The notes beneath the pieces were generated by a model. It searched no databases and was not told the origin of the DNA. It worked only from the letters and a program-made list of their open reading frames with translations. Position numbers and translations under genes: made by a program. Of a DNA stretch of 35,602 nt, positions 13,431-30,401 are shown piece after piece (position 1 is the first letter of the stretch; the number at the start of each line of letters is the position of its first letter). Origin of the DNA: an uncultured Pseudomonadota bacterium (GTDB taxonomy: Bacteria > Pseudomonadota > Gammaproteobacteria > Steroidobacterales > Steroidobacteraceae); contig CAISHQ010000115.1 of assembly GCA_903885195.1 (NCBI GenBank), positions 1 to 35,602 on the forward strand. Direction: 5' to 3'.

Positions 13431-13488
13431 CCGACGCTCACGGCCGCTCGGCACGCTCGGGGCCGCGCAACGCGCAGGCCCCCGCGTC

Positions 13489-15486: not shown

Positions 15487-16460
15487 GTCCTGACAAGACC
15501 GCGCGGCGCGATCGACTGGCAGCGATCGCGGCTGCAACTGCTGCCATGCTGTTCGCGACCAAAGGCATCTTCGCGAAGCAGCTCTATTCAATGGGCGTGA
15601 GCGTCGAAGCGCTGGTCACCATCCGCGCGACGCTCGCCGTGCCGTTATTCTGGTGGCTCGCGCTGCGCCGCGAACCGATCGCCGTCATCCGCCAGACGCC
15701 ACCCTCGGCCGTACTCGCCGCCGTGATCGCAGGTGCGCTCTGCTACTACGTGGGCGCACTGCTCGATTTCCATGCGCTGACCATGATCGATGCCAGCATC
15801 GAACGTGTGCTGATTTTCAGTTACCCGGCCATGGTGGTGCTGTTCACCTCGGTGCGCGATCGTCAGCGCCCCTCGGCACGGGTACTCGGCGCGGTCGCAC
15901 TCGCCTACCTCGGGATCTTCTTCACGATGGGCGGTTTCGATATGGTCGAGCTGCGCGCCAATCTCGTCGGCGCATTGCTCGTGATCGGCTCCGCGCTGAC
16001 CTACGCGGTGTACTTCATCATCAGCGAGAAATACACGCGGCTGATCGGCAGCGCGCGCTTCACGCTCATCGCCATGACGGCCTCGGCGAGCTGCCTAGTT
16101 GTGCATTTCGCGTTCATCGGCGGAACGGCGCAGTTACCCATGATCAGCGCGCCGGCCTGGGGCCTGCTATTTGTAATCGCTGTGGTGTGCATGTTCTTGC
16201 CCGCCCAGTTGCAGGCCGAGGGCGTCCGTCAGATCGGCGCGCAGCGCGGAGCGGTGATGTCGACGGTGGGGCCACCCACCACCGTGATTCTCGCGTTTTT
16301 CTTGCTCGGTGAGCGCCTCTCAGGCTGGCAGTGGGTGGGCATCGCACTCATCGTGCTCGGCATTCTGGTGCTCGATCTGACGCGCAGTCAGGCGGTGACG
16401 CGCACTCAGGCGGCCAGCCAGGCCGAACCGTCGCCGCCGCGCAGCAAGTCGAACGAATAG
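15483..16460 (+). CDS. EamA-family (drug/metabolite transporter superfamily) permease
   Basis: The 325-residue protein has ten predicted transmembrane helices arranged as two EamA repeats. The first begins AAIAAATAAMLFATKGIFAKQLY and the second GALLVIGSALTYAVYFIISEKYT. The last helix ends GIALIVLGILVLDL, a typical EamA finish, followed by a polar tail. Such permeases usually export amino acids, nucleosides or other metabolites. The GTG start overlaps the previous stop by four bases. Its last 55 bases overlap the end of the convergent GntR-family gene, so both C-termini are encoded in the same DNA. Substrate unknown. Confidence 0.88.
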   Translation: MSPDKTARRDRLAAIAAATAAMLFATKGIFAKQLYSMGVSVEALVTIRATLAVPLFWWLALRREPIAVIRQTPPSAVLAAVIAGALCYYVGALLDFHALTMIDASIERVLIFSYPAMVVLFTSVRDRQRPSARVLGAVALAYLGIFFTMGGFDMVELRANLVGALLVIGSALTYAVYFIISEKYTRLIGSARFTLIAMTASASCLVVHFAFIGGTAQLPMISAPAWGLLFVIAVVCMFLPAQLQAEGVRQIGAQRGAVMSTVGPPTTVILAFFLLGERLSGWQWVGIALIVLGILVLDLTRSQAVTRTQAASQAEPSPPRSKSNE

Positions 16461-17170
16461 GTGAAACGCTCGGCGGGATGATGGGTCTGCGACAACAGCA
16501 GAACCTGCCCTGACGCATCGCGGTAGCGCCGCGTGACGCAGAGAGATGCGCTGTTGACAGGCACACCCAAAGCGCTGGCGCGCTGCGCATCGAACAGATC
16601 TGCCGTCACCTCAACCTCCACCCGCGCCACGCGCGCGCCGAAGCGGGACTCGATGAGTTCGTACACCCGACCCGCCCGACGCCCCATGGCACCGACCACA
16701 CCGGCATAAGCCTCGGGCAGATAGATGTCGCTCCACCCGATGAGCACCCGATCTGCCCTCATGCGACGCAAAGCCGTGACCCGACGCCAAGGCGCACCGC
16801 GCCGGCATTCGAGCCGCCGCGCAAGCTCCGCATCGACGCGTAGCGCCTCATTGCCGATGACTTCCAGACGACTGTCCTCGGCGTAGCGCATCCAGCCGGC
16901 GGGAGAGCCCAGCTTCTGCACGTGCGCACTCGAGGGCTCGCGCGCCGTCACCACCGTGCCGATGCCGCGGTTGCGACTGATCAGCCCGAGCTCGGCGAGG
17001 CAGCGCAGGGCTTCGCGCACCGTATGCCGACTGACACGATACCGGCTCATCAGCTCGAGTTCCCCGGGCAAGGTTGAGCCCACGGCGTACCGGGATTCGC
17101 CGATGGCCTGCTGCAAGGCATCGGCGAGACGCCGGTAGCGAGGCTGCGATCTTGGCGGATTGACCAACAT
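16406..17170 (-). CDS. GntR/HutC-family transcriptional regulator
   Basis: This roughly 254-residue protein has an N-terminal winged helix (about 10-76; RYRRLADALQQAIG, TLPGELELMSRYRVSRHTVREALRCLAELGLI, RNRGIGTVV) and a C-terminal UTRA effector-binding domain (about 95-245), the HutC subfamily layout. It probably binds a pathway intermediate and represses the divergent operon that starts at 17230. Two starts are possible: 17188 and 17170. I prefer 17170 because the helix-turn-helix domain begins soon after and a TAAAAT -10 element (17179-17184) lies eight bases before it, implying a leaderless transcript. One of the two operator palindromes (17169-17180) overlaps this start, a strong sign of autoregulation. 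Confidence 0.88.
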   Translation of the reverse strand: MLVNPPRSQPRYRRLADALQQAIGESRYAVGSTLPGELELMSRYRVSRHTVREALRCLAELGLISRNRGIGTVVTAREPSSAHVQKLGSPAGWMRYAEDSRLEVIGNEALRVDAELARRLECRRGAPWRRVTALRRMRADRVLIGWSDIYLPEAYAGVVGAMGRRAGRVYELIESRFGARVARVEVEVTADLFDAQRASALGVPVNSASLCVTRRYRDASGQVLLLSQTHHPAERFTYSFDLLRGGDGSAWLAA

Positions 17171-17180
17171 GTCCGGACAT
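17169..17180. promoter_or_regulatory. Operator palindrome 1 of the GntR-family regulator
   Basis: A perfect 12-bp palindrome, ATGTCCGGACAT. It overlaps the preferred start codon and the -10 region of the regulator gene, so binding here should block its own transcription. GntR-family proteins bind short palindromes of this kind as dimers. A near-copy lies 31 bp away. Confidence 0.65.
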
Positions 17181-17199
17181 TTTAGCATGCAGGCTCGAA

Positions 17200-17211
17200 A
17201 TGTCCGTACAT
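17200..17211. promoter_or_regulatory. Operator palindrome 2 of the GntR-family regulator
   Basis: ATGTCCGTACAT, matching operator 1 at 11 of 12 positions. The centre-to-centre distance of 31 bp is close to three helical turns, so both dimers would sit on the same DNA face. It lies just upstream of the GGGAG ribosome site (17220-17224) of the MaoC gene and likely covers the operon promoter. On the other strand, its TGTCCG part supplies a CGGACA -35-like hexamer 16 bases from the TAAAAT of the regulator. Confidence 0.65.
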
Positions 17212-17229
17212 TAATTTTCGGGAGTTTCC

Positions 17230-17748
17230 ATGAGCCACGCCCCCGTGCAGACCGGACCGCAGCGCTACCGCGAATCCTTTGGTCGCTACTACGAAGATTT
17301 CACGGTCGGCGACGTTTACGAGCACCGTCCCGGTCGCACGCTCACTGAAACCGACAACACGTGGTTCACGCTGCTCACCATGAACACGCATCCGCTGCAT
17401 TTCGACGCTGAATATGCCAAGCAATCGGAATTCGGCCGCTGCATCGTCGCCTCCCCGCTCACGCTCGCGATTATCGTCGGCATGAGCGTCACCGACGTAA
17501 GCCAGAAAGCCATCGCCAACCTCGGCTGGAAAGAGATCCGCATGACGGCACCGGTGTTCGCGGGCGACACGCTCTATGCCGAGACTGAGGTACTCGGCAA
17601 ACGCGAATCGGCCTCGCGCCCCACCGCGGGACTCGTCACGGTGCGAACGCTGGGCCGCAACCAGCAAGGCACGGTGGTCTGCGATTTCGAGCGCACTATC
17701 CTCGTCGCCAAACGCGGCCACGCCGTCGAAGATCGAGCAGGAGCATGA
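17230..17748 (+). CDS. MaoC-family enoyl-CoA hydratase (mesaconyl-CoA hydratase-like)
   Basis: This 172-residue single hotdog-fold protein starts with the family signature RYYEDFTVGDVYEHRPGRTLTETD, followed by MNTHPLHFDAEYA and, later, VFAGDTLYAETEVLGKRESASRP. It should add water to, or remove it from, an enoyl-CoA. In the classic hydratase-2 motif D-x-N-P-x-H, the Asp position is Asn52 and the Asn position is His54, while His57 is kept; the pattern resembles the mesaconyl-CoA hydratase-like branch. It is the first gene of the long operon facing the GntR regulator. It has a GGGAG ribosome site, and its stop overlaps the start of the following dehydrogenase gene by four bases. Confidence 0.88.
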   Translation: MSHAPVQTGPQRYRESFGRYYEDFTVGDVYEHRPGRTLTETDNTWFTLLTMNTHPLHFDAEYAKQSEFGRCIVASPLTLAIIVGMSVTDVSQKAIANLGWKEIRMTAPVFAGDTLYAETEVLGKRESASRPTAGLVTVRTLGRNQQGTVVCDFERTILVAKRGHAVEDRAGA

Positions 17749-18890
17749 GCATGTCGGCAGACAACGAAATCATCGACAGCATCGAGCGCTGGTGCGAACG
17801 CGAGCTGCGCCCCGTGGCGAAGAAGTTCGACCACGCGGACGAGTACCCCGAGCCGATCGTTGAGCAGATGAAGGAACTCGGTCTGTTCGGAGCGACGATC
17901 GACCCGGAATACGGCGGCCTCGGCCTGAGCGCCGCCACTTACGCACGGCTCGTCATGACCATCGCCTCCGTGTGGATGGCCCCGGTCGGCATCTTCAACT
18001 CCCACCTGATCATGGCGGCCTGCGTGCAGAGGCATGGCACGGCTGAACAGAAGCAGCGCTGGTTGCCCAAGTTTGCGAGCGGCGAAATCCGCGGCGGCAT
18101 CGGCCTCACCGAGCCGAATGCGGGTACGGACCTGCAAAGCATCAGGACCACGGCGCGGCGCGACGGCAACGGCTACGTCATCAACGGTACGAAGACCTGG
18201 ATCACCAACGGCGTGTACGGCAGTTGCTTTGGCGTGCTGGTCAAGACCGACCCGGAGGCGCAACCGCGCCACAAGGGCATGAGCATGTTCCTTTGCGAGA
18301 AGGGCGCAGGTTTCAAGGCCTCGAAGAAAATCCGCAAGCTCGGCTACAAGTCGATCGACAGCGCCGAGCTCGTCTTCGAAGATCATCGGGTCTCCGCCGA
18401 CCAGCTGATCGGCGGCGTCGAGGGCCGCGGATTCCAGCAGGCTGTCGGCGGACTCGAACTCGGACGCATCAACGTCGCCGCACGCGGTGCCGGCATCGCG
18501 GCCGGAGCCCTGCGCGATGCCCTGCGCTACGCGCAGGAACGACAGACCTTCGGCAAGCCCATCGCCCAGCACCAGGCCATTCAGCTGAAACTCGCGGACA
18601 TGGCCACTCGGGTGGAGGCCTCACGCCTGCTGATTGAGCAGGCCGCACGCAAGTACGACACCGGCGAACGTTGTGACCTCGAGTCGAGCATGGCCAAGCT
18701 CTTCGCCTCCGAGGCGGGCGTTGAGAACAGTCTCGAAGCCATGCGGATCTTCGGCGGCTACAGCTATTCGACGGACTTCGACGTCGAGCGCTATTACCGC
18801 GATGCACCGCTGATGTGTATCGGCGAAGGCACCAACGAAATGCAGCGAATCATAATCGCCCGCCAACTCATCGAGAGGAACCCGCTGTGA
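17745..18890 (+). CDS. Acyl-CoA dehydrogenase (FadE/ACAD family)
   Basis: This 381-residue flavoprotein makes 2,3-enoyl-CoA from acyl-CoA and passes electrons to ETF. Features in order are the N-terminal helical domain, GIGLTEPNAGTDLQSI (flavin-binding strand, about 120-135), W-I-T-NG (about 152-156), RQTFGKPIAQHQAIQLKLADM and the C-terminal GEGTNEMQR. Glu361 there is in the position of the catalytic base of medium-chain enzymes. Length is standard. The first ATG overlaps the MaoC stop by four bases; a second Met two codons later is an alternative. It is the only dehydrogenase of the four in this operon with the plain canonical GEGT motif, so it can act alone as a homotetramer. Confidence 0.92.
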   Translation: MSMSADNEIIDSIERWCERELRPVAKKFDHADEYPEPIVEQMKELGLFGATIDPEYGGLGLSAATYARLVMTIASVWMAPVGIFNSHLIMAACVQRHGTAEQKQRWLPKFASGEIRGGIGLTEPNAGTDLQSIRTTARRDGNGYVINGTKTWITNGVYGSCFGVLVKTDPEAQPRHKGMSMFLCEKGAGFKASKKIRKLGYKSIDSAELVFEDHRVSADQLIGGVEGRGFQQAVGGLELGRINVAARGAGIAAGALRDALRYAQERQTFGKPIAQHQAIQLKLADMATRVEASRLLIEQAARKYDTGERCDLESSMAKLFASEAGVENSLEAMRIFGGYSYSTDFDVERYYRDAPLMCIGEGTNEMQRIIIARQLIERNPL

Positions 18891-20101
18891 GCGAGGCTGC
18901 TGCCGTCGCACTCGGTCTGCCGCTGCAGGGCATCCGCATACTCACTTTCGAGGCCTTCGGGGCAGGCCCCTTCGGCTCCATGTATTTGGCCGACCTCGGC
19001 GCAGAGGTCATCAAGATCGAAAATCGAGCACAAGGCGGCGATGCCACGCGCGGCATGGGCCCCTACTTCCTCGGCGAGCACGATTCGCACTTCTTCCAGA
19101 CGTTCAATTTCAACAAGCGCAGCGTGTGCCTCGACCTGAAGACCGCAGAGGGTCAGCAGGCGTTCAAGCGCCTCGTGGCGCGCTCCGATGCCGTCCTCAA
19201 CAACTTGCGCGGTGATCAGCCGGACAAGCTTGGGTTGACCTACGCCGCCTTGCGCGAAAGCAATCCGCGCATCGTCTGCGCACACCTATCCGCCTATGGC
19301 CGGGACAACGAACGACGCGCCTGGCCGGGCTACGACTATCTCATGCAGGCCGAGGCCGGCTTCCTGCATGTGACGGGCGAACCGGGCTCACCACCCGCGC
19401 GAATGGGCCTGTCGATCATCGATTTCATGACTGGCATCACCACCGCACTGGCGCTGGTCTCCTCGCTGCTCGGCTCTGCGCGAACAGGCGTCGGCCGGGA
19501 CGTGGACGTCAGCCTGTTCGACGTCGCGCTGCACCAGTTGTCTTACCCCGGCAGCTGGTATCTGAACGAAAAGCTGGTCACCGGACGCTCGCCGCGCAGC
19601 GCGCACCCCACCGCCACGCCGGTGCAGCTGTTCCGCACGGCCGACGGCTGGATCTTCATCATGTGCATGACCGAAAAGTTCTGGCAGGAACTGATGCGTG
19701 TACTCGGTCAGCCACCACTCGCCAGCGACCCGCGCTTCACCACCATGCCACTGCGACGCGAGCACCGCGACGAACTGACACCGCTGCTCGATGAGATCTT
19801 CAGCGGCGACACCACTGCGCGTTGGCTGCAGCGCCTGCAAGGTGTGCTGCCCGCCGCGCCCGTGAACGATATGGCGCAAGCGCTCGACAACCCCTTCCCG
19901 CTCGCGACGGGCATGGTCCGCCGAACGCCACACCCGCTGCGCGACGACTTTCGCGCGCTCGCGAACCCCATCAAGCTCGATGGACAGCGGCTGCCGTCAC
20001 GCAGTGGGCCTGCACTCGGTGCCGATACCGACGCCGTACTCGCGGAACTCGGCTACGACGCAAACGAGATCGCGCAGCTGCGCGAGCGGGGGATCACATG
20101 A
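18887..20101 (+). CDS. Class III CoA-transferase (CaiB/BaiF family), first of a tandem pair
   Basis: This 404-residue enzyme has the family N-terminus ([33 protein letters not shown]), FNKRSVCLDLKTAEG and the active site AWPGYDYLMQAEAGFL with likely nucleophile Asp150. The GTG start overlaps the previous stop (GTGA) and has GAGAGGA about eight bases upstream; a longer frame inside the previous gene was rejected. It is followed directly by a second CaiB-type gene. Tandem pairs of this family can form heteromeric transferases, as with BbsE/BbsF of benzylsuccinate degradation. Both partners here keep the Asp, so they could equally be separate homodimers. Likely role: CoA activation of the pathway acid at the expense of another acyl-CoA. 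Confidence 0.9.
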   Translation: MSEAAAVALGLPLQGIRILTFEAFGAGPFGSMYLADLGAEVIKIENRAQGGDATRGMGPYFLGEHDSHFFQTFNFNKRSVCLDLKTAEGQQAFKRLVARSDAVLNNLRGDQPDKLGLTYAALRESNPRIVCAHLSAYGRDNERRAWPGYDYLMQAEAGFLHVTGEPGSPPARMGLSIIDFMTGITTALALVSSLLGSARTGVGRDVDVSLFDVALHQLSYPGSWYLNEKLVTGRSPRSAHPTATPVQLFRTADGWIFIMCMTEKFWQELMRVLGQPPLASDPRFTTMPLRREHRDELTPLLDEIFSGDTTARWLQRLQGVLPAAPVNDMAQALDNPFPLATGMVRRTPHPLRDDFRALANPIKLDGQRLPSRSGPALGADTDAVLAELGYDANEIAQLRERGIT

Positions 20102-21225
20102 AGCTCGAGGGCCTGCGCGTCATCGACCTGTCGCAGTTTCTCCCGGGACCGCAGTTGACCTTGATGATGGCCGACCAAGGTGCCGAGGTGATCAAGATCG
20201 AACCCCCGGGCGAGGGCGAACCCGGTCGCCACATCGGCGTGCGCGATGGTGAGCACACCGTGTTCTTCCGCAACACGCAACGTGGCAAGAGGAGCGTCTG
20301 TCTCAATCTCAAGAATCCCGAGGACCGCGAGTCGCTGCTGCGCCTCTGCGACACCGCCGACGTGTTCGTCGAAGCGTTCCGCCCCGGCGTCGTAAAGCGC
20401 CTCGGGGTCGACTACGACACGCTCGCTGCACGAAATCCGCGAATCGTCTATTGCTCGATCTCTGCGTTCGGCCAGACGGGACCCTATCGGGATCTGCCAG
20501 CGCATGATCTGGCCATCGAGTCGCTTGCCGGGGTCGTGAGCCTGAACCTTGGCAACGACGGCGAACCGGTGATGCCGCACGTCCCGGCCGCCGATATGGC
20601 TGCATCGATGCTCGCACTCAGCGGCGTACTGATGGCCCTCTACCGGCGCGAGAAAACCGGACTCGGCGACTACCTCGACATCGCCATGTTCGACTCCATC
20701 CTGGCCTGGACACCCAACATCACGGGTCAGGTGTTTGCGAACAAGCGGCCGCCGATCGTCAAGCACGAACGCAGTCTTGGCGGCTCGGCGTTCTACAACA
20801 TCTATCGAACCCGCGATGGCAAGCACGTCGTGCTTGGTGCGCAGGAGATCAAATTCGTCCGCAACCTGCTGCAGGCGCTTGGCAGGGCCGAGTTCGTCGA
20901 GCTCTGCGAACGCGGACCGGGGCCGCACCAGGCACCCTTGATCGCCTTCCTGCGCGAGACTTTCGCCGCACGCACACGGGCCGAATGGATCGAGTGGTTC
21001 GCTGGCAAGGACGTCAGCTTCGCCCCGGTGCACGACCTGCGCGAGGCCTTTGACGATCCGCAAGCTGAGGCGAGACAGATGCGACTGCTTGATGCGGAGG
21101 GTCGCGAGCATATTGGGATCCCGATCAAGTTTGCCCGCGAACCGGGCGTAGCCAGGCTGACCCTGCCCGCGCTCGGCGAGCATAATGCGGACTACGTCGG
21201 CAGCCCGGGCGCGGCGTCCCACTGA
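20098..21225 (+). CDS. Class III CoA-transferase (CaiB/BaiF family), second of a tandem pair
   Basis: This 375-residue member starts [19 protein letters not shown], then [41 protein letters not shown] and the active-site stretch [15 protein letters not shown] with likely nucleophile Asp137. The ATG overlaps the preceding stop by four bases (ATGA), which settles the start over a much longer frame that begins inside the upstream gene. It is about 30 residues shorter at the N-terminus than its neighbour, and the two sequences differ enough that recent duplication is unlikely. With its partner it should provide CoA transfer for the operon, which contains no recognisable acyl-CoA ligase. Confidence 0.9.
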
Positions 21226-21283
21226 ACAGAATGGCCCGGCGGCCGACGCCGTTGGTAGCACGCGGCACTTCGAGGAGCACTGC

Positions 21284-22516
21284 ATGGAGTTTCAGTACAG
21301 CGACACCACCCGCGCCTTGCTCAAACGCTTGCTGCGCTTCATGGATCAACACATCTATCTAAACGAGCGGGCGTTCCTGCAGGAGATTGCGGCGAATCGC
21401 GCGCAAGGAAACCCCTGGGTACCGTTGCGTCTGATCGAAGAGCTGAAACTCAAGGCGCAGGCCGAGGGTTTGTGGAACCTGTTTTTGCCGCGCAGCCCAC
21501 GCGCTCCGCAGGGACTCTCGAACCTCGACTACGCACCGCTCTGTGAAGTCATGGGTCGTTCCGTGTTCGCGCCGGAGGTGTTCAACTGCTCCGCACCGGA
21601 CACGGGCAACATGGAAGTGCTCGAACGTTACGCGAGTCCCGCACTCCAGGAGCGCTGGCTCGAGCCGCTGCTACGCGGGGAGATTCGCTCGGCATTTCTC
21701 ATGACCGAGCCCGACGTCGCCTCCTCTGATGCCACGAACATCGCCTGCCGCATCGAGCGCGACGGCGATCACTACGTCATCAACGGCCGAAAGTGGTGGA
21801 GCTCGGGCGCGGGGGATCCGCGCTGCGCGGTCTACATCGTGATGGGTCGCAGCAACCCGGATCATCCCCGACATACGCAGCAGTCCATGATCGTCGTGCC
21901 CGCGAATACGCCGGGCATACGCGTCGAGCGAGCGCTGCCCGTGTTCGGCTATGACGATGCGCCGCATGGCCACATGGAAGTCAGCCTGACCGATGTACGC
22001 GTTCCCGCCGATCATCTGCTGCTCGGTGAAGGTCGCGGCTTCGAAATCGCGCAGGGGCGCCTCGGGCCCGGGCGCATTCACCACTGCATGCGATCGATCG
22101 GCATCGCCGAGCGCGCGTTGGAATTGATGTGCACGCGGCTGGCGACGCGCGTGGCCTTTGGCAAACCAATCGCCACCCAAGGTGTATGGCGGGAACGAAT
22201 CGCCGAGTCGCGACTGCTGATCGAGCAAGCGCGACTGCTGACGCTGAAGACCGCGTGGATGATGGACACGGTCGGAAACAAGGTGGCACGCAACGAGATC
22301 GCCATGATCAAGGTCGTGGCGCCGCAGGTGTCCACGCGCATTCTCGACTGGGCGATTCAGGCGCATGGCGGCGGCGGCGTCAGCGATGACTTCCCGCTCG
22401 CCTACGCGTATGCCGCGCAGCGCACGCTGCGGCTCGCGGACGGACCGGACGAAGTCCATCGCGACGCGATCGCAAAATACGAACTATCCCGGCATCTGCC
22501 GCCGCGCATCGGTTGA
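21284..22516 (+). CDS. Acyl-CoA dehydrogenase, ACAD10/11-like
   Basis: This 410-residue enzyme begins [25 protein letters not shown] and has [16 protein letters not shown] (flavin site), [49 protein letters not shown] and the C-terminal LADGPDEVH. In that last motif an Asp (residue 386) stands where GEGT-type enzymes have the catalytic Glu. This combination is typical of the ACAD10/11 branch, which acts on branched or hydroxylated acyl-CoAs in the animal proteins. The kinase domain fused to animal ACAD10/11 is absent here and no kinase gene is nearby. A GAGGAG site seven bases before the ATG fixes the start. A 58-base gap separates it from the CoA-transferase genes, and its stop touches the sulfatase start. 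Confidence 0.88.
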
Positions 22517-24360
22517 TGATGCAAGCCGGCAGACCCGTACGCCCGCAAACCATCGCACCGAGCGGTGGCTGGCGCGCCCGTGCACTACGCGCGGCGAGCG
22601 TCTTCGCAGGAGCACTGCTTGGCTGCACTGCCCTCGCCAGCAATCTCACCCCGGGCGACAGTAATGCGATCGCGCAATCGACGCCGCGCCCACCCAATAT
22701 CGTCTTGATTGTCGCCGACGACTGGGGCTACACCGACGTCGGTGCATTCGGCGGTGAAATCGCCACGCCCACGCTCGATGCATTGGCGGCCAACGGCACT
22801 CGATTCTCAAGTTTTCATGTGTCTGCCGAGTGCTCACCCACTCGGGCCATGCTTCTGACCGGACTCAACAGTCACCTGACCGGCGTCGGTGCCATGCGCG
22901 AGACCGTGCCCACAAGCCATCTCGGCAAACCGGGATACCTCACCGTGCTCAAGCCCGAAGTGATCACGGTGAGTTCACGCCTGCAGCAGTCGGGCTACAG
23001 AACCTACGCGGTCGGCAAGTGGCACGTCGGCAAGGCGACGCACAATCTGCCACCGGCTCGAGGCTTCGACCGCTCGCTTGTGCAGGCCGACAGCGGATCG
23101 GACAACTGGCAGACCGCACAGCGCTATCTCGCCCTGACCGACAAGGTCTACTGGTTCGAGGACGGCCGTGAGGCGCGCATGCCTAAGGAGTTCTACTCCT
23201 CGCAGTTCTATGTCGACAAGGCGATCGACTACCTGCGTCAGGATCAACAGAGCGACAAACCGTTTTTCCTGTACCTTGCCTTTCAGGCCAACCACATTCC
23301 CCTGCAGGCGCCGCGCGAATTCATTGAGCGCTATCGTGGCAGGTACGACGAAGGGTGGTCGACGTTGCGCGAAGCTCGGCATCGTCGCGCCATCGAACTC
23401 GGGTTGATTCCGCCCGAGGCGAAACTCGCGGCTTGGCCGAACCTCGAAAACTGGACGACGCTCGATGACGATCGCCGGGCCTACGATGCACGGCGCATGG
23501 AAGTCTATGCAGGCATGGCCACCGCCATGGACCATCATCTCGGTCGACTCGTCGCGCATCTGCGCCGCAGCGGCGAGTTCGACAATACAGTCTTCGTATT
23601 TTTGTCGGACAACGGCGCCGAAGCCTCCGACCCCTACGAGTTCACCCTCGGTCGCCTCTGGCTGATGACTCAATACACCAACGAACGCGAGCAACTGGGC
23701 GCGAGGGGCGCGTACGCGAGCATCGGGCCCAATTGGGCGAGTGCCGCAGCGGCACCACTTGCGACCCACAAGTTCTACGCAGGCGAAGGTGGGCTGCGCG
23801 TACCGCTCATCATTAGCAATGTCGCCGGAGCCACTGCGGGAACCATTCACCGCGGCTTTGCGCACGTCACCGACATCGCGCCCACGCTGCTCGATCTGGC
23901 CAGCATCACGCCCGCCGAGCGCCTCACCGGTCACAGCCTGCTTCCGGTGCTGCAAGGCGCGGCCGAGCGTCACCGAGCAGTAGACGAGCCACTGGGCTAC
24001 GAACTCGCAGGCAATGCCGCTCTCTTCAAAGGCGATCTCAAACTGGTGCGCAACATGCCGCCGGTGGGCGATGGCCGCTGGCGGCTACACGACATCGCAC
24101 GCGACCCCGGAGAAACCGTGGATCTCAGCGCTGCTCGCCCGGACGAATATCGATCCATGATCGAGGCCTACGCTCGCTTCGAGCGCGACAACGGCGTGTT
24201 GCCGATGCCCGCCGATTACGATCCGCGGCAGCAGGTGACGCGCAACGCGCTGCGTAACGTGATCCTCCCGGCGGCCCTCCCCCCTCTGCTCTTGACGCTC
24301 ACCATTCTTGGCGGGTGGCTCTGGTTCCGCCGTCGGCAACGGCGGATGACGCAAGCGTGA
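22516..24360 (+). CDS. Formylglycine-type sulfatase (arylsulfatase family) with C-terminal membrane anchor
   Basis: The roughly 614-residue protein has an N-terminal signal or anchor (about 22-45) and the sulfatase fold. Two metal aspartates lie in NIVLIVADDWGY, and the signature ECSPTRAMLLTG contains Cys106, which an FGE-type enzyme converts to formylglycine. Other conserved pieces are GKWHVGK, AFQANHIPLQAP and FLSDNGAEAS. A hydrophobic helix at about 580-600 followed by WFRRRQRRMTQA suggests inner-membrane anchoring with the catalytic domain in the periplasm. The frame opens with a TTG at 22513, but the ATG at 22516 shares its A with the TGA of the dehydrogenase gene and is preferred. Its place among acyl-CoA genes suggests removal of sulfate from a substrate before import. 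No maturase gene is visible. Confidence 0.9.
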   Translation: MMQAGRPVRPQTIAPSGGWRARALRAASVFAGALLGCTALASNLTPGDSNAIAQSTPRPPNIVLIVADDWGYTDVGAFGGEIATPTLDALAANGTRFSSFHVSAECSPTRAMLLTGLNSHLTGVGAMRETVPTSHLGKPGYLTVLKPEVITVSSRLQQSGYRTYAVGKWHVGKATHNLPPARGFDRSLVQADSGSDNWQTAQRYLALTDKVYWFEDGREARMPKEFYSSQFYVDKAIDYLRQDQQSDKPFFLYLAFQANHIPLQAPREFIERYRGRYDEGWSTLREARHRRAIELGLIPPEAKLAAWPNLENWTTLDDDRRAYDARRMEVYAGMATAMDHHLGRLVAHLRRSGEFDNTVFVFLSDNGAEASDPYEFTLGRLWLMTQYTNEREQLGARGAYASIGPNWASAAAAPLATHKFYAGEGGLRVPLIISNVAGATAGTIHRGFAHVTDIAPTLLDLASITPAERLTGHSLLPVLQGAAERHRAVDEPLGYELAGNAALFKGDLKLVRNMPPVGDGRWRLHDIARDPGETVDLSAARPDEYRSMIEAYARFERDNGVLPMPADYDPRQQVTRNALRNVILPAALPPLLLTLTILGGWLWFRRRQRRMTQA

Positions 24361-24382
24361 GGCCATGGTGGAAGTAACCAAC

Positions 24383-24411
24383 TTGTTCGTGCCCCGAGGC
24401 ACTCGCATACT
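24383..24411 (+). promoter_or_regulatory. Possible internal promoter for a leaderless transcript
   Basis: In the 57-base gap after the sulfatase gene, TTGTTC (24383-24388) and CATACT (24406-24411) are 17 bases apart, and the ATG at 24418 follows six bases after the -10. Transcription would begin at or next to the ATG. The spacer holds a short inverted repeat, GTGCC-CCGA-GGCAC (24389-24402), that may be an operator. There is no Shine-Dalgarno in this gap, which supports the idea. Confidence 0.45.
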
Positions 24412-24417
24412 GCAGTC

Positions 24418-25611
24418 ATGAGCAACATCGAAGAATTCCGTCTCGAGACCCGGCAATGGCTCGAGACCCACTGCCCCGCCTCGCTGCGAACGCCGATGTC
24501 CGAGCGCGAAGTCGTTTGGGGTGGGCGCAACGCCACCTTCCCCTCGGACGACGCGCAGCGCTGGCTGCAGGCCATGGGGGAGCGCGGCTGGACGGCCCCC
24601 ACATGGCCCAGAAGTTATGGCGGCGGCGGACTGACCGCGGAGCAAAACGCCGTGCTGCAGGAGGAACTGCGTCGCATCAAGGCGCGCCCGCCGCTCTACT
24701 CTTTCGGACTGTGGATGTTCGGCCCGGTGCTGCTCGAGTTCGGCAGCGAGGAACAGAAACAACGATTCCTTCCACCGATCGTTCGCGGCGAAACTCGCTG
24801 GTGCCAGGGCTACTCAGAGCCGGGCGCAGGATCGGATCTGGCCTCGCTCGCCACACGATGCGAAGACCACGGCGAGCATTTCCTGATCAACGGCCAGAAG
24901 ATCTGGACGAGTTACGCCAATCTCGCCGACTGGATGTTCTGTCTCGTGCGCACCGACACGCGCACCAAACATGGCGGCATCTCCTTCGTCGTGTTTGACA
25001 TGCGCACGGCGGGCGTGGAAACACGACCTATTCGCCTGATCTCGGGCGACTCGCCGTTCTGCGAAACGTTTCTGACCGACGTGCGCGTACCGAAAGACCA
25101 GCTCATCGGACCGCTCAACGGCGGCTGGGAGATCGCCAAACGTCTGTTGATGCACGAGCGGACCAATATTTCCGCCGAAGCGTTCGGCAACGCGGCGGGA
25201 CTCGATCTCATCGAGACGGCCCGGCAGTTTGTGGGCTTGCGCGAGGGCGTGCTGGCCAACACAGACCTGCGTGCACGCATTGCACGCCACCGCATGCGTG
25301 ACGAAGCCTTTCGACTCGCGGTGCAACAGGCGCGAACGGGGCACGGGCGCAGCAGCAGTGCCGCAACCTCAGCCCTCGCCTCAAGCTTCAAGGTCGCCGC
25401 CGCGTCGCTCAATCAGGAGCGCTGCGAGCTGCTTCTCGAGTGCCTCGGTCACGAGGGCCTTGGCTGGGAGGGCGAAGGATTCTCGACCGACGCCTTGCGA
25501 GCGACTCGCCATTGGCTGCGCTCCAAGGGCAACTCCATCGAGGGCGGCACGACCGAAATTAACCTCAACGTGATCGCCAAGCGGGTGCTGGGCCTGCCGG
25601 ATCCGGTCTGA
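24418..25611 (+). CDS. Acyl-CoA dehydrogenase, alpha-type subunit of a heteromeric enzyme
   Basis: This 397-residue protein begins MSNIEEFRLETRQWLETHCPA and has WPRSYGGGGLTAEQNAVLQEEL, YSEPGAGSDLASL (flavin site), INGQKIWTSYANLADWMFCL, ERTNIS and the end motif SIEGGTTEINLNVIAKRVLGLP. The GEGT Glu of ordinary enzymes is Gly here (EGGTTE); in steroid side-chain enzymes of this branch the base is supplied from another helix. Those enzymes (for example mycobacterial FadE26/27 and FadE28/29) are alpha2beta2 heterotetramers encoded by adjacent genes. The next gene, 15 bases downstream, looks like the matching beta-type subunit. Likely role: desaturation of a bulky acyl-CoA. The gene may have its own leaderless promoter. 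Confidence 0.9.
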   Translation: MSNIEEFRLETRQWLETHCPASLRTPMSEREVVWGGRNATFPSDDAQRWLQAMGERGWTAPTWPRSYGGGGLTAEQNAVLQEELRRIKARPPLYSFGLWMFGPVLLEFGSEEQKQRFLPPIVRGETRWCQGYSEPGAGSDLASLATRCEDHGEHFLINGQKIWTSYANLADWMFCLVRTDTRTKHGGISFVVFDMRTAGVETRPIRLISGDSPFCETFLTDVRVPKDQLIGPLNGGWEIAKRLLMHERTNISAEAFGNAAGLDLIETARQFVGLREGVLANTDLRARIARHRMRDEAFRLAVQQARTGHGRSSSAATSALASSFKVAAASLNQERCELLLECLGHEGLGWEGEGFSTDALRATRHWLRSKGNSIEGGTTEINLNVIAKRVLGLPDPV

Positions 25612-25626
25612 GCAGGAGTTCACGTC

Positions 25627-26763
25627 ATGTCGATGACCCCAGACCAGCAAATGCTCGAAGACACTGCGCGGCAATTCTTTGCCGAGCGATCGCCTCCGGG
25701 CGCAGTGCGCGCCAACCGGACCGCCGGACGCTCGTTCGATCCCACCCTCTGGCAGCAGATCGGTGAACTCGGGTTCTCCGGCGCGCTCATCCCGGAAAGC
25801 CACGGTGGCTCAGGTATCGGCTATCGTGGACTCGGCCTTGTGCTCGAGGCCGCGGGCCGTACGCTGTGTGCCTCGCCACTGCTGCAGAGCAGCTTCATCG
25901 GGGCGGCGGCCGTGCTGCGACACGGCAGCGCAGCGCAGCAGGCGAGCCTGCTGCCGCGCATCGCTATGGGCGAACTCACGCTGGCCTTGGCGGTGGATGA
26001 AACGCCACATCACCACCCGGAAAACACCCGCACGGTCGCCCGACACGTCGATGGCGGTTGGGTGCTCAATGGACGCAAGCGTTTCGTCGCCGACGGCGAC
26101 AGCGCCTCACTGCTACTGACGCTGGCACGCATCGACACGGCGGGCGCCGAGTCCGACGCGTTGCGCTGGTTTCTGGTGCCGTCCGCAACGGCGGGCGTCA
26201 CACGTCAACGTCTTCACACCGTCGATGGCGAAGGCTTTGCCGACATCGAGTTCGCCGCGGTTGACCTCGGCGCGGATGCAGCACTGGGCACGGCAAGCCC
26301 GACGTCGTGGCAGGATGTTCTCGATGTCGCCTGCATTGCCCTCGCGAGCACCATGCAGGGCTCAGCGGAAGCAGCGCTCGCGCTGACTCTCGACCATCTG
26401 AAGACCCGCACTCAGTTCGGCCAGCTGATCGGCAGCTTTCAATCCTTGCAGCATCGCGTCGCGCGGCTGCATGTGGATCTGCAGCTGGCGCGTGCCGCCG
26501 TCACGGGCGCACTCGACGAACTCGATGCTCGCGGACACGTGACTGCAGACCCGCGCCTGCATCGACTGGCCTCGCTCTGCAAAGCGCTCTGCGGCGACGC
26601 CTTGCACGATGTGTCGAATGAGACCGTGCAGCTGCACGGGGGCATCGGCATGACCGACGTGCACGACAGCGGCTTGTTTCTGAAGCGCGCGCGCGTGCTT
26701 GAGACGCTGTATGGGACAAGCAGCCATCATCGCGACCGCTACGCGCGTCTCGCCGGGATCTAG
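25627..26763 (+). CDS. Acyl-CoA dehydrogenase, beta-type (non-catalytic) subunit
   Basis: This 378-residue partner has the degenerate features expected of the second subunit. The flavin-site strand is eroded (LALAVDETPHHHPENT instead of a TEP.AGSD motif) and the C-terminus has QLHGGIGMTDVHDSGLFLKRARVLETLYG followed by TSSHHRDR, with no catalytic Glu. FGQLIGSFQSLQHRVARLHVDLQLAR is well kept, consistent with a role in binding the FAD across the subunit interface. An AGGAGTT site lies seven bases before the ATG. It follows the alpha-type gene by 15 bases and its stop is one base from the TonB-dependent receptor start. Confidence 0.88.
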   Translation: MSMTPDQQMLEDTARQFFAERSPPGAVRANRTAGRSFDPTLWQQIGELGFSGALIPESHGGSGIGYRGLGLVLEAAGRTLCASPLLQSSFIGAAAVLRHGSAAQQASLLPRIAMGELTLALAVDETPHHHPENTRTVARHVDGGWVLNGRKRFVADGDSASLLLTLARIDTAGAESDALRWFLVPSATAGVTRQRLHTVDGEGFADIEFAAVDLGADAALGTASPTSWQDVLDVACIALASTMQGSAEAALALTLDHLKTRTQFGQLIGSFQSLQHRVARLHVDLQLARAAVTGALDELDARGHVTADPRLHRLASLCKALCGDALHDVSNETVQLHGGIGMTDVHDSGLFLKRARVLETLYGTSSHHRDRYARLAGI

Positions 26764-26764
26764 C

Positions 26765-29170
26765 ATGCTGCGCCCGATCACCCTCATCAGCTGCGTCATC
26801 GCAGCCGCTATCGCCGCGCCCGGCAAAGCGCAGGAGACGGAACTCGAAGAGGTCGTGATCAGCGGCCAACGACAACCCGGTGCGGTGGTCGGCGACATAC
26901 CCCCCGACGTGCAGTTGTCGGCCCAGGAAATCCGCGCACTCGGTGTCAGTAACGTCAGCGAACTGCTGCAGGCACTCGCGCCCGTCCTCGGCACCTCGCA
27001 GGGTCGCGGCGGCGAGCGACCTGTGGTGCTGCTGAACGGCGCCCGCATCAGCGGGTTCAACGAGATCCGCGATCTGCCGTCCGAAGCTATCTTACGCACC
27101 GACATCCTGCCCGAGGAGGTGGCCCTCAAATACGGCTACCGCGCAACGCAACGCGTGGTGAATATCGTGCTGCGACCTCGGTTCCGATCGATAACTGCCG
27201 AAGCCGGTGCGCAAAGTTCAAGTGCTGGCGGGCGCGATGGCGCAGATCTCTCAGGCGGACTGCTGCGCGTGCAACGCGACGATCGACTGCAACTCGATTT
27301 GAAACTGCAACGGAGCGACGAGTTGCTCGAGAGCCAACGCAACGTCCAACAAGTGTCGACAGCCCCGGACGCTACGGGAACTGGCGCAGACCGCACGCTG
27401 CTTCCCGCCGTCGAGCAGTGGAGCGCCAATGCGGTGTGGGCGAAGCCGCTGCGCGAAGGCTTGACGGTGACCCTCAATGCAACGCTGGATGCCGCCGAGC
27501 GCGACTCGCTGTTGGGACTGTCACCCGCGCCACTTGCGCAGGCTATTCGGCGCACGACCGAAACCCAAGATCTGCACCTCGGTGGCTTGGTCAATGGCGC
27601 CACAGGCGGCTGGCGCTGGTCGGCCATCGTCAACGCCGATCGCCGCGACGTCACCACCCTGACGCGCATCGAGGGCGGCAATACGTCTCGACAACGCAAC
27701 GACGAAGCATCGGCGGAACTGCTCGTGACGGGAACGGCCTTCACACTCCCCGCGGGCGAAGCGCTGCTCAATACCCGACTGGGCCTCGACACCCAGGACG
27801 TCACCTCGACCTCGCGCCGTGCAGGAATCGATCGCGAAACGGCACTGACACGCGATCGACAGGACCTGCGCGCCAGCCTCGATATGCCGCTGACGCGTCG
27901 CGCCGACGCGCCACGGCTCGGCAATCTGTCGCTCAACGTCAATGCCGCACGCGAGTGGCTCTCCGACTATTCCGCCCAGGATACGCGCGGTGCGGGAATC
28001 AGCTGGGCGCCGCTCGATCGCTTTCGACTGCTCGCGTCCCACTCGATCGAGGATGGCGCGCCTGAGACGCGGCAACTGGCGGCGCCCGTGCTCACCACAC
28101 CCGGCGTGCGTGTATTCGATTACCTGCGCGGTGAGACCGTGCAGGTTGCGCTCATCGACGGCGGCAACCCGCTGCTGCGCGCGGACCGTCGCGAGGTGAG
28201 CAAACTCGCCTTGACGCTGCGTCCGTTCGACAGCCGCGACGTGACCCTGACCTCCACCTATCTGCGCTCGACGCTGCAGGACAGCATCAGCAACCTACCC
28301 CAGGCGACTGCAGAGGTGGCAGCCGCGTTTCCCGAGCGCTTCGTACGTGATGCGAGCGGTCGATTGCTCGTGGTCGATTCGCGCCCGATCAACTTGGCAG
28401 AGCGTGAGCGTGAAGACCTGCGGACCACGCTGAGTTTCAGCTTGCCTTGGGGACCGCAGCCGGAGCCCCCGTTTGGCAACCGAGGTCAGCGTCCCGCAGG
28501 AATCACACCCGCTGCAGGTCCGCCTCCCGCGGCTGGCGCGCCTCCCGCTGCCGGAGCGACAGCCTCTGCAAGTGCACCTCCCGCGCAGGCGAGCGCGGTC
28601 GATGAAGCCGCGCGGCGCGCCCGGATGGAAGCGATGGGCGCCCGCATGCTGGGCTTTGCGCGTCGCGGCAATCTGCAACTGTCGCTCGCGCACACCCTGC
28701 GCCTGAGCGATACCGCGAGGCTCGCCGCAGGCCAGCGATCGCTCGATCTGCTGAATGGCGACGTGCTGAGCGAGTCGACCGCCCTGCCGAAACAGGAATG
28801 GGAACTGCAGTTCGGCGGCGCCCGCAACGGCTTCGGCGGTCGACTGATCGTCCAGTGGCGAGAAGCGGCGCGCGCGCGCAGTGCGGGCAGCGACCTTGAG
28901 TTCGCCGACTTCACCACCGTCAATCTGCGGCTGTTCGCAGACCTCGGTCTGCAGCCGCTCGCTCGCGAACATCCCTGGATGCGCGGCGTTCGGGTGTCGC
29001 TCGTGGTCAACAACATGCTTGACGACAAGCCACAAGTTCGCCGTGCCGATGGCAGTACACCGGTAAATTTCCAACCCGATCTGCTTGATCCGCTCGGTCG
29101 CAACCTCAGGTTGACCGTGCGCAAGTTCTTTTTCCCCACGGGTCGCGCGCCGGAGCGCGGGCTGCGATAA
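26765..29170 (+). CDS. Atypical TonB-dependent receptor with a Pro/Ala-rich insert
   Basis: This 801-residue protein has a signal peptide (1-23, ending GKAQ), a TonB box-like LEEVVISGQ and a plug domain (about 45-145; SAQEIRALGVSNVSELLQALAP, RPVVLLNGARISG, LRTDILPEEVALKYGY). A long beta-rich region then ends NLRLTVRKFFFPTG with about eight extra residues. The plug lacks the usual RG..L.V.IDG wording, and residues about 578-612 form a low-complexity stretch rich in Pro, Ala and Gly (PAAGPPPAAGAPPAAGA). It probably brings the pathway substrate across the outer membrane. The ATG lies one base after the dehydrogenase stop; a longer frame inside that gene was rejected. The assignment to the receptor family is solid, the ligand is not known. 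Confidence 0.85.
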   Translation: MLRPITLISCVIAAAIAAPGKAQETELEEVVISGQRQPGAVVGDIPPDVQLSAQEIRALGVSNVSELLQALAPVLGTSQGRGGERPVVLLNGARISGFNEIRDLPSEAILRTDILPEEVALKYGYRATQRVVNIVLRPRFRSITAEAGAQSSSAGGRDGADLSGGLLRVQRDDRLQLDLKLQRSDELLESQRNVQQVSTAPDATGTGADRTLLPAVEQWSANAVWAKPLREGLTVTLNATLDAAERDSLLGLSPAPLAQAIRRTTETQDLHLGGLVNGATGGWRWSAIVNADRRDVTTLTRIEGGNTSRQRNDEASAELLVTGTAFTLPAGEALLNTRLGLDTQDVTSTSRRAGIDRETALTRDRQDLRASLDMPLTRRADAPRLGNLSLNVNAAREWLSDYSAQDTRGAGISWAPLDRFRLLASHSIEDGAPETRQLAAPVLTTPGVRVFDYLRGETVQVALIDGGNPLLRADRREVSKLALTLRPFDSRDVTLTSTYLRSTLQDSISNLPQATAEVAAAFPERFVRDASGRLLVVDSRPINLAEREREDLRTTLSFSLPWGPQPEPPFGNRGQRPAGITPAAGPPPAAGAPPAAGATASASAPPAQASAVDEAARRARMEAMGARMLGFARRGNLQLSLAHTLRLSDTARLAAGQRSLDLLNGDVLSESTALPKQEWELQFGGARNGFGGRLIVQWREAARARSAGSDLEFADFTTVNLRLFADLGLQPLAREHPWMRGVRVSLVVNNMLDDKPQVRRADGSTPVNFQPDLLDPLGRNLRLTVRKFFFPTGRAPERGLR

Positions 29171-29210
29171 TGCCGGGCGTTCGTCAGCCCCTTTGCTCGC
29201 AGGTCCACGC

Positions 29211-30401
29211 ATGCTCGAAACACTCAGCGCTGTTCCTCCAGATCCGATCCTCGGCGTTAGCGCCGCCTTCCAGAAAGACAATTCGCCGCTGAAAATCGAC
29301 CTTGGGGTCGGCGTGTACAAGGACGAAGCGGGCAAGACGCCCATCCCGCGTGCGGTGAAGCGGGCCGAGCAGGAACTTCTGGCGGCCCAGAGCACCAAGT
29401 CCTATCTCAGTCCGGTGGGCCATCCCGGTTTCAACGCCCAGGTGGCCGAACTCACGCTGGGTTCGGATCTGGCGGGTCGGAGGGGCGAACTCGCGCTAGC
29501 GCAGGCGCCGGGGGGCAGCGGCGCACTGCGGCTCGGGGCGAGCCTGCTGCAACTGGCGCGTCCAGGATCCACGGTTCACGTCAGCGACCCCACTTGGGCC
29601 AACCACATCCCGTTGCTCGGCGGTGCGGGCTTGAAGCTCGCCACCTACCCGTACTACTCGGCCGAGCGCAACGCCCTCGATTTCGAAGGCATGATGAAGA
29701 GCCTCGACTCGTTGCCAGCCGGCGAAGTCGTGCTGCTACACGCCTGCTGTCACAACCCGACCGGTCAGGATCTCGATCCCTCGCAGTGGGCCGCCGTCGC
29801 CGAGGTGCTCGCGCGGCGTCGACTGATCCCCTTCCTCGACATGGCCTATCACGGGCTAGGCGAAGACCTCGATCGCGATGCCGCCTCCGTCAGGCTCATC
29901 GCCAAGGCCGTGCCCGAACTGCTGATCGCCGTGTCCTGCTCGAAGAACTTCGGTATCTACCGCGAACGCACGGGCCTGCTAGCAGTGCTGTGTCACGGCT
30001 CGGCGCAGGCCGGCATCGTCACCGGCCACCTCGGCCGAGCCGCCCGAACGCTGTGGTCCATGCCACCCGATTCCGGCGCAGCCATCGTCGACCGCGTGCT
30101 GTCCCAGCCCGAGTTGCGTCAGGACTGGATGACCGAGCTCACCCACATGGCCCAGCGCATCAACGGTCTGCGCACTCTGCTGGCCGACAAGCTGAGCGCA
30201 GCCACCGACACGGACTTCGGCTGGATCAAACAGCAGCGCGGCATGTTCTCGCGCCTGCCGCTGTCGCCCGAACAGGTGGCGAAGGTACGCGATCAGCACC
30301 ACATCTACATGACGCCCGATGCGCGCATCAACGTCGCAGGGGTCAGCCCGAGCACTATCGATTACCTCGCCACATCACTTGCCACGGAGTTGCGTCGATG
30401 A
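29211..30401 (+). CDS. Aromatic/aspartate-type class I aminotransferase
   Basis: This 396-residue PLP enzyme has the AspC/TyrB layout: GVGVYKDEAGKTPIPRAVK, SYLSPVGHPGFN, TWANH, HACCHNPTGQDLDPSQW (Asn182), FLDMAYHGLGEDLDRDA (Asp210, Tyr213) and SCSKNFGIYRERTG with the PLP lysine at Lys245. It transfers the amino group between aromatic amino acids or aspartate and 2-oxoglutarate. Sequence alone does not decide between TyrB- and AspC-like specificity, so no symbol is given. The ATG follows an AGG at a fair distance; six codons upstream in the same frame are unlikely to be used. Its stop overlaps the next aminotransferase gene by four bases. Confidence 0.9.
   Translation: MLETLSAVPPDPILGVSAAFQKDNSPLKIDLGVGVYKDEAGKTPIPRAVKRAEQELLAAQSTKSYLSPVGHPGFNAQVAELTLGSDLAGRRGELALAQAPGGSGALRLGASLLQLARPGSTVHVSDPTWANHIPLLGGAGLKLATYPYYSAERNALDFEGMMKSLDSLPAGEVVLLHACCHNPTGQDLDPSQWAAVAEVLARRRLIPFLDMAYHGLGEDLDRDAASVRLIAKAVPELLIAVSCSKNFGIYRERTGLLAVLCHGSAQAGIVTGHLGRAARTLWSMPPDSGAAIVDRVLSQPELRQDWMTELTHMAQRINGLRTLLADKLSAATDTDFGWIKQQRGMFSRLPLSPEQVAKVRDQHHIYMTPDARINVAGVSPSTIDYLATSLATELRR

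Follow-up and report, generated by a model that had tools for sequence, protein, structure and literature searches.

A conserved CoA-transferase core and a variable sulfatase-bearing cassette adjoin in a GntR-linked locus of an uncultured Steroidobacteraceae bacterium

We analyzed contig C115 (CAISHQ010000115.1) of an uncultured gammaproteobacterium of the family Steroidobacteraceae, the entire 35,602 bases of which are called the window here and belong to a 2.72-Mb genome of 201 contigs (97% complete, 3.9% contaminated). Between positions 16406 and 29170, the window carries nine same-strand genes and a divergent regulator gene, gntR (Table 1), all present as an earlier sequence-only reading had described them. 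Pfam recognizes a GntR+UTRA regulator, a MaoC hydratase, four acyl-coenzyme A (acyl-CoA) dehydrogenases, two class III CoA-transferases (CoA_transf_3) and a sulfatase, and the TonB-dependent receptor of that parts list is backed by a weak Plug match and a structure model. The nine genes had been taken for one unit, which agrees with their presence and packing but not with their distribution, since the full order recurs in only one of 17 related loci and the parts vary independently. The locus is made of two layers, a conserved core (maoC-acad1-caiB1-caiB2) and a variable cassette, and is not one conserved nine-gene pathway. On balance, we favor a composite locus in which the GntR-controlled core works like an itaconate/methylsuccinate module, with its linked lyase absent and the cassette lying downstream.

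A widespread core and a variable cassette

Genes were sought in relatives by tblastn with window or sister probes, absence meaning no match at the stated E-value in the examined stretch. Five loci are cut by contig ends (L142, L075, L037, L325 and L326), the places of gntR and the lyase being unseen in L142 and that of the cassette in L325 and L326; L136 and L324 (genome G736) are the same contig and were counted once, and several other named loci coincide with loci of the G-numbered genomes. The core is widespread, both in the window's family and in other Proteobacteria. With caiB2 as bait (E threshold 1e-90), 36 of 150 family genomes matched, the window's included, and in 20 loci around such matches caiB2 is accompanied by maoC, acad1 and caiB1, mostly together with gntR. 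A scan of named genomes was limited to the best 80 loci (L136-L215), so that all counts on them are minimum values; acad1 and caiB2 occur together in at least 63 and all four core genes in at least 50, with carriers that include Steroidobacter, Microbulbifer, Caulobacter, Brevundimonas, Sphingomonas and Kaistia. A CitE-like gene is found in at least 33 of these 50 four-gene loci, an MmgE/PrpD gene in at least 16, and gntR, within the examined stretch, in at least 28.

By their annotation, the same kinds of genes recur on plasmids. Those of Azospirillum and Pseudosulfitobacter bring together genes for a CoA ester lyase, MaoC, MmgE/PrpD, acyl-CoA dehydrogenase, CoA-transferase, GntR and TRAP proteins; plasmids of Variovorax and Aminobacter hold part of that set, without MmgE/PrpD, and a Tistrella plasmid holds part of it without a linked lyase and MaoC. 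The window's acad1 shares 60-68% identity with the dehydrogenases of the Azospirillum, Variovorax and Pseudosulfitobacter plasmids, which adjoin genes for MaoC, CoA-transferase and CoA ester lyase, and caiB1 is 55% identical to the single CoA-transferase of the Azospirillum cluster. As a side observation, the core of Steroidobacter and some Alphaproteobacteria (L202, L205, L159, L165, L170 and L189) adjoins a larger recurring gene set composed of two MmgE/PrpD proteins, an AMP-binding (PaaK-like) enzyme, an amidase and a polysaccharide-deacetylase-like protein, in some cases with the operator described below upstream. In L298 and L299, an acad1-type dehydrogenase adjoins an MmgE/PrpD protein that shares 62-63% identity with its Azospirillum counterpart, and the stretch examined gave no CaiB match.

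The cassette behaves differently from the core. When 17 related loci were compared for their contents between caiB2 and the first aminotransferase gene, the full window set was found in one, the Nevskiaceae isolate ZLKRG17, which, with the window, is the only place where the nine genes were seen in order. Four loci have acad2, sulfatase and receptor, and in two of these acad2 is followed by a short-chain dehydrogenase; five have acad2, a short-chain dehydrogenase and acad3 (acad4 is present in three, and the other two are cut by contig ends). The receptor stands alone in four, one of which is contig C200 of the window's own assembly, and the slot is empty of cassette genes in three. Conservation of gene order beyond close relatives, which the sequence-only reading had proposed as a check, is thus found for the core and not for the nine genes. 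The lack of a hydroxyacyl dehydrogenase, which that reading had noted, is true of the window but only locally, since a short-chain dehydrogenase follows acad2 in seven of the 10 acad2-bearing relatives.

Cassette genes also occur away from the core. As many as 158 of 296 order genomes match acad2 at 1e-80, so it is a common enzyme of the order, and it stands without the core in six fully read family loci outside the genus (L078-L083). The sulfatase bait matches 93 of the 296 genomes at E<=1e-60, and matches of at least 56% identity are limited to the window's family, where 11 genomes (the window's counted) have one. In G073, G203, G138, G149 and G265, the sulfatase orthologue is found at another site, next to a second sulfatase in the first four; the G265 contig in question is 5 kb long. 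In a tree, the sulfatases encoded in the cluster fall into a single group (support 90/93), and the gene may therefore have come into the locus a single time. The orthologues at such other sites in L038-L041 were seen in tandem with a second sulfatase that is 27% identical to the window's, with GST-like and SDR genes nearby where the surroundings were inspected.

In the family, a linked lyase and cassette genes are mutually exclusive. Among 32 family loci besides the window, 16 carry a linked CitE gene but lack every cassette gene, 14 carry at least one cassette gene but lack CitE (L142, whose lyase place is unseen, is among them), two, both cut, have neither, and none has both; a 27% acad2 match in L135, lying at least 5 kb from the core, was left out of the count. 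The window itself has the cassette without the lyase. A tree of acad1, caiB1 and caiB2 groups the cassette loci inside the genus at support 87/96, some forks within that group being left open; the loss of the lyase and the gain of the cassette thus map to one region of the tree. A strong match to the cluster-type lyase is present in five of 24 genus genomes, and the source genome encodes, on contig C22, one CitE-like protein that is 39% identical to the cluster type.

The operator between gntR and maoC

The region between gntR and maoC contains a palindromic operator of the type TTTGTCCGGACAAA (short form TGTCCGKACA). Since the second of its two copies overlaps the longer gntR start, the true start of gntR may be Met7 (17170). 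TGTCCG(G/T)ACA lies between gntR and maoC in 18 of 19 family loci, and at least one operator site is found in the stretch for all 22 family loci with gntR and for none of the 10 without (L142 being cut). In the 80 named loci, TGTCCGGACA occurs 54 times, 35 of them, from 26 loci, in upstream zones, defined as about 260 bases 5' of ten probe-defined core or linked genes and amounting to 7.5% of the sequence; as a control, 29 palindromes made by permuting its letters gave a mean of 0.03 and a maximum of one zone match. When the G/T variant is included, a zone site is present in 30 of 39 named loci with gntR vs. two of 41 without.

At the level of whole genomes, the 14-base form has two perfect sites in the window's assembly, both at gntR-maoC copies, and 16 distinct sites in 13 of the 24 genus genomes, the reversed control giving none in either case. 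Of these 16, 13 are at gntR-maoC, two precede an MmgE/PrpD gene and one is inside an open reading frame; the last, in G187, sits within a long frame and was taken as chance. In G073 and G203, the operator-bearing MmgE/PrpD gene shares a contig with the core, at a distance of about 66 kb, and an MmgE/PrpD gene of the same type, with operator, lies near the core in L147 and L164 (65-75% identity with the G073 protein and about 50% with the Azospirillum one). Within the window, allowing up to two mismatches reveals no further site, the four matches being the two sites on both strands, a number also reached by 9 of 100 shuffles. GntR control of the cassette would therefore depend on read-through. 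A literature text search with four operator forms returned no bacterial-regulator title among the matches listed. The locus offers a testable regulon, with one regulator, one operator and a core shared by several proteobacterial groups, for the use of branched dicarboxylates outside the characterized pseudomonad clusters.

Proposed function and alternatives

Among the nine genes, Pfam finds no thiolase, ligase or crotonase; ordinary β-oxidation was accordingly rejected, as in the sequence-only reading, and activation by CoA transfer instead of a ligase fits. The further statement that no pathway with this set had been described fails for the core, which resembles a described gene set: PMC12290011 and PMC9875883 report itaconate/methylsuccinate breakdown for a five-gene cluster, ich-mcd-mmgE-ict-ccl, in C. 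necator and P. aeruginosa. That cluster and the window have the same kinds of gene, for a hydratase, an acyl-CoA dehydrogenase and a CoA-transferase, without ligase or thiolase, and in the window's relatives the lyase and MmgE/PrpD are linked or stand under a shared operator. The window differs in its RipB-like MaoC, its GntR/UTRA regulator with a defined operator and its extra cassette. The MaoC also resembles RipB/Ich of the Y. pestis-type RipABC itaconate operon, which is described in PMC12290011, and has 59% identity to a RipB/Ich-annotated protein of P. caribensis; unlike in that operon, the transferases are of CaiB type (the P. caribensis RipB is adjoined by an acetyl-CoA hydrolase/transferase-type protein) and there is an added dehydrogenase. 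No P. aeruginosa-type cluster was recognized via NF038241 and acad1 in two class samples, and the literature, judged by title and abstract start, yielded nothing matching a GntR-controlled itaconate cluster; PMC12290011 has no word beginning with regulator, GntR or LysR.

Since its gene content matches the set of itaconate/methylsuccinate clusters, the core probably acts on a five-carbon (C5) or similar branched dicarboxylate. A CaiB enzyme would move CoA from succinyl-CoA onto a small 2-branched dicarboxylate, acad1 would form an unsaturated (mesaconyl-type) CoA ester, MaoC would hydrate it to a citramalyl-type ester, and the CitE lyase, a neighboring gene in many lineages, would split the product. 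The unlinked CitE-like protein of contig C22 could replace the missing linked lyase. The facing GntR/UTRA protein would control the core, presumably as a repressor, via the TGTCCGKACA operator, and transcription from the core promoter could read through into the cassette.

Several observations weigh against this scheme. The window contig has no HpcH_HpaI match that would mark a linked CitE lyase, and six MmgE/PrpD probes gave no tblastn match within the window, although linked MmgE/PrpD with operator is present in its relatives. The MaoC scores 238 bits against NCBIfam NF038241 (RipB/Ich), under the family cut-off of 340, which none of the 274 genomes of a class sample reached. There are two class III transferases vs. 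one in the published cluster, and caiB1 and caiB2 share only about 30% identity with the transferase of Pseudosulfitobacter. The acad1 family is also found beside other genes without the core module. Among the 63 named loci with acad1 and caiB2, a CitE probe had no match in 30, and a zone operator is present in 29 and lacking in 34. Lastly, the operator statistics are not independent, because the loci are related to one another and the zones were chosen once the operator was known.

The sequence-only reading treated the locus as a single operon serving a single pathway: a bulky, perhaps sulfated acid would enter through the receptor, lose its sulfate to the sulfatase in the periplasm, receive CoA from the CaiBs and be desaturated stepwise by the dehydrogenases. 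Tight packing, the full order kept by ZLKRG17 at 81-88% nucleotide identity, the restriction of the cassette to loci without a linked lyase and the single group of cluster sulfatases are in its favor, but we hold it to be improbable, because the receptor occurs without the sulfatase in four of the 17 loci, the sulfatase without acad3 and acad4 in four and acad3 without the sulfatase in five (the two cut ones among them), sulfatase orthologues lie elsewhere in the five genomes named above, and the core is widely found without any cassette gene. A literature search for a steroid-sulfate pathway gave a match on bile acid degradation that lacks the word sulfatase, the other matches being on human or rat genetics, and this candidate was set aside. 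That sulfatase and receptor might instead scavenge sulfate esters or take up nutrients, unrelated to the CoA genes next to which they landed in a convenient slot, strikes us as unlikely too. It would suit the nearest solved relative of the sulfatase (arylsulfatase 1hdh, from P. aeruginosa), the orthologues standing beside other genes including a second sulfatase, the slot contents that vary between congeners and a promoter-like match (21157-21186) about 100 bases 5' of acad2, though matches of this kind are not enriched over shuffles (three vs. 1.6, standard deviation 1.4). Against it, no promoter-like match lies directly 5' of sulfatase or receptor, and the sulfatase is tied to the operon by its -4 junction with acad2.

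The adjacency of the two CaiB genes, together with benzylsuccinate CoA-transferase chains among their PDB matches (83-130 bits), could mean that they form one heteromeric BbsEF-like transferase and that the core degrades longer alkyl- or arylsuccinates, not C5 acids. We give this a low probability, as formyl-CoA transferase, YfdE and succinate-hydroxymethylglutarate CoA-transferase score higher, the Azospirillum cluster has its caiB1 homologue without a caiB2 partner, and both CaiBs have, by eye, an Asp at the position expected for the catalytic one of the family. Another reading, tentative and in our view rather doubtful, is that an ancestral GntR-controlled C5-dicarboxylate module was re-routed in this lineage and now processes, through a pathway not yet described, an acid that is larger and possibly sulfated. 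Its signature is the pattern of 16 lyase-only and 14 cassette-only loci with none having both: the linked CitE would have been lost as the locus gained receptor, acad2, sulfatase and dehydrogenase pair, in an order that the tree leaves unsettled, acad2 would be joined by a short-chain dehydrogenase in most species, and the same activation, desaturation and hydration enzymes would handle the new acid. The restriction of the cassette to loci that lack the lyase usually linked to the core fits a changed substrate or route, and this clade possibly puts the parts to a new use. Returning to the composite reading that we favor, the locus is mostly a variant of a known cluster type, behind whose lyase-out, cassette-in pattern a new pathway could hide. 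Within one genus, a catabolic module seems to trade its last-step gene for new ones; should the substrate of this modified form be found, it could reveal a new carbon source, and if it is plain methylsuccinate or itaconate, sulfatase and receptor would be ordinary passengers.

Gene layout, cassette products and surroundings

From maoC to acad4, the gene junctions measure -4, -4, -4, +58, -4, +57 and +15, and the junction of acad4 with the receptor gene is +1 if the latter starts at the ATG at 26765. Junctions of 1 to 4 bases, said to prevail at most steps, are thus borne out in that five of the eight are of at most 4 bases, the +58, +57 and +15 ones being wider. Because two aminotransferase genes, absent from the sequence-only reading, closely trail the receptor gene on the same strand (+22, then -4), the transcription unit may comprise 11 genes.

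Table 1. Features of the locus and its downstream flank, in window coordinates
Feature	Position	Strand	Basis or remark
gntR, GntR family regulator, HutC/UTRA type	16406..17188	-	Pfam GntR and UTRA, both over cut-off
Operator copy 2, CATGTCCGGACATT	17168..17181	.	one mismatch to WWTGTCCGKACAWW
Operator copy 1, AATGTCCGTACATT, between gntR and maoC	17199..17212	.	operator statistics
maoC, RipB/Ich-like (R)-specific enoyl-CoA hydratase	17230..17748	+	Pfam MaoC/MC_hydratase
acad1, acyl-CoA dehydrogenase	17745..18890	+	Pfam
caiB1, class III CoA-transferase	18887..20101	+	Pfam CoA_transf_3
caiB2, second class III CoA-transferase	20098..21225	+	Pfam CoA_transf_3
acad2, ACAD10/11 (LvaC)-type dehydrogenase	21284..22516	+	ACAD11 chains 8v3u and 2wbi, 484 bits
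Sulfatase, PAS/AtsA-like, CSPTR motif	22513..24360	+	Pfam Sulfatase; 1hdh, 396 bits
acad3, PimC-like subunit of dehydrogenase pair	24418..25611	+	TIGR03204, 262 bits, below cut-off 624
acad4, PimD-like subunit	25627..26763	+	TIGR03203, 186 bits, below cut-off 653
TonB-dependent receptor-like outer membrane protein	26765..29170	+	sub-threshold Plug, structure model
Aminotransferase class I/II	29193..30401	+	edge of cassette slot in congeneric loci whose stretch includes that side
Aminotransferase class III	30398..31768	+	directly after class I/II aminotransferase

Within the cassette, acad2 aligns with the ACAD11 chains over residues 9-402 of 410, nearly its full length, and its PDB scores fall from 484 bits for these to 466 for 4hr3 (a putative acyl-CoA dehydrogenase) and then to 129. 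The LvaC/ACAD10-ACAD11 group is described as eliminating phosphate from 4-phosphoacyl-CoA, and LvaC, the bacterial counterpart, as doing so from 4-phosphohydroxyacyl-CoA (PMC11342911). In contrast to that group, the window contig has no partner kinase gene, APH-domain matches being found only on other contigs. The sulfatase resembles PAS/AtsA (1hdh) over residues 59-564 and in its CxPxR motif, and differs from it in its gene surroundings and in a C-terminal membrane anchor which, like an N-terminal signal, was recognized by eye; FGE-type proteins are encoded in the source genome (PF03781 matches).

Although acad3 and acad4 miss the PimC and PimD family cut-offs, their adjacency fits such a pair, and since they resemble a large/small pair, the four dehydrogenases, confirmed as four Pfam matches, may amount to three enzymes. 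A catalytic-residue argument for acad4 was dropped, as neither acad3 nor acad4 aligns a Glu with the GEGT column of acad1. The receptor has no Pfam match at E<=0.001, and its label is supported by a sub-threshold Plug match (19.4 bits vs. a cut-off of 23.9) and by a low-confidence AlphaFold model (pLDDT 60), whose best PDB matches are TonB-dependent transporters, with template modeling (TM) scores of 0.24-0.30 by query among the matches listed.

On the 5' side of the locus are genes for an EamA transporter, a protein without Pfam match, a third CaiB, an amidohydrolase and a TonB-dependent receptor, which partly recur beside the core in congeners. Many congeners, as well as some other genera, likewise have the amidohydrolase and third CaiB genes (12558-14718) next to the locus, with 67-97% identity to the window's amidohydrolase in 10 named loci, and no amidohydrolase was seen beside the locus in G138, G149 and G361. 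A kinship with the amidohydrolases of the Variovorax cluster was considered and rejected, there being no clear relation (best E 0.012). Finally, contig C200 (L116, 1-15263) of the same assembly (G000) carries a second copy of most of the neighborhood. It shares about 69-73% nucleotide identity with the window and 87% with G073 and G203, has a G+C content of 60.7% vs. 64.2%, and is probably a congener's contig binned with the source genome.

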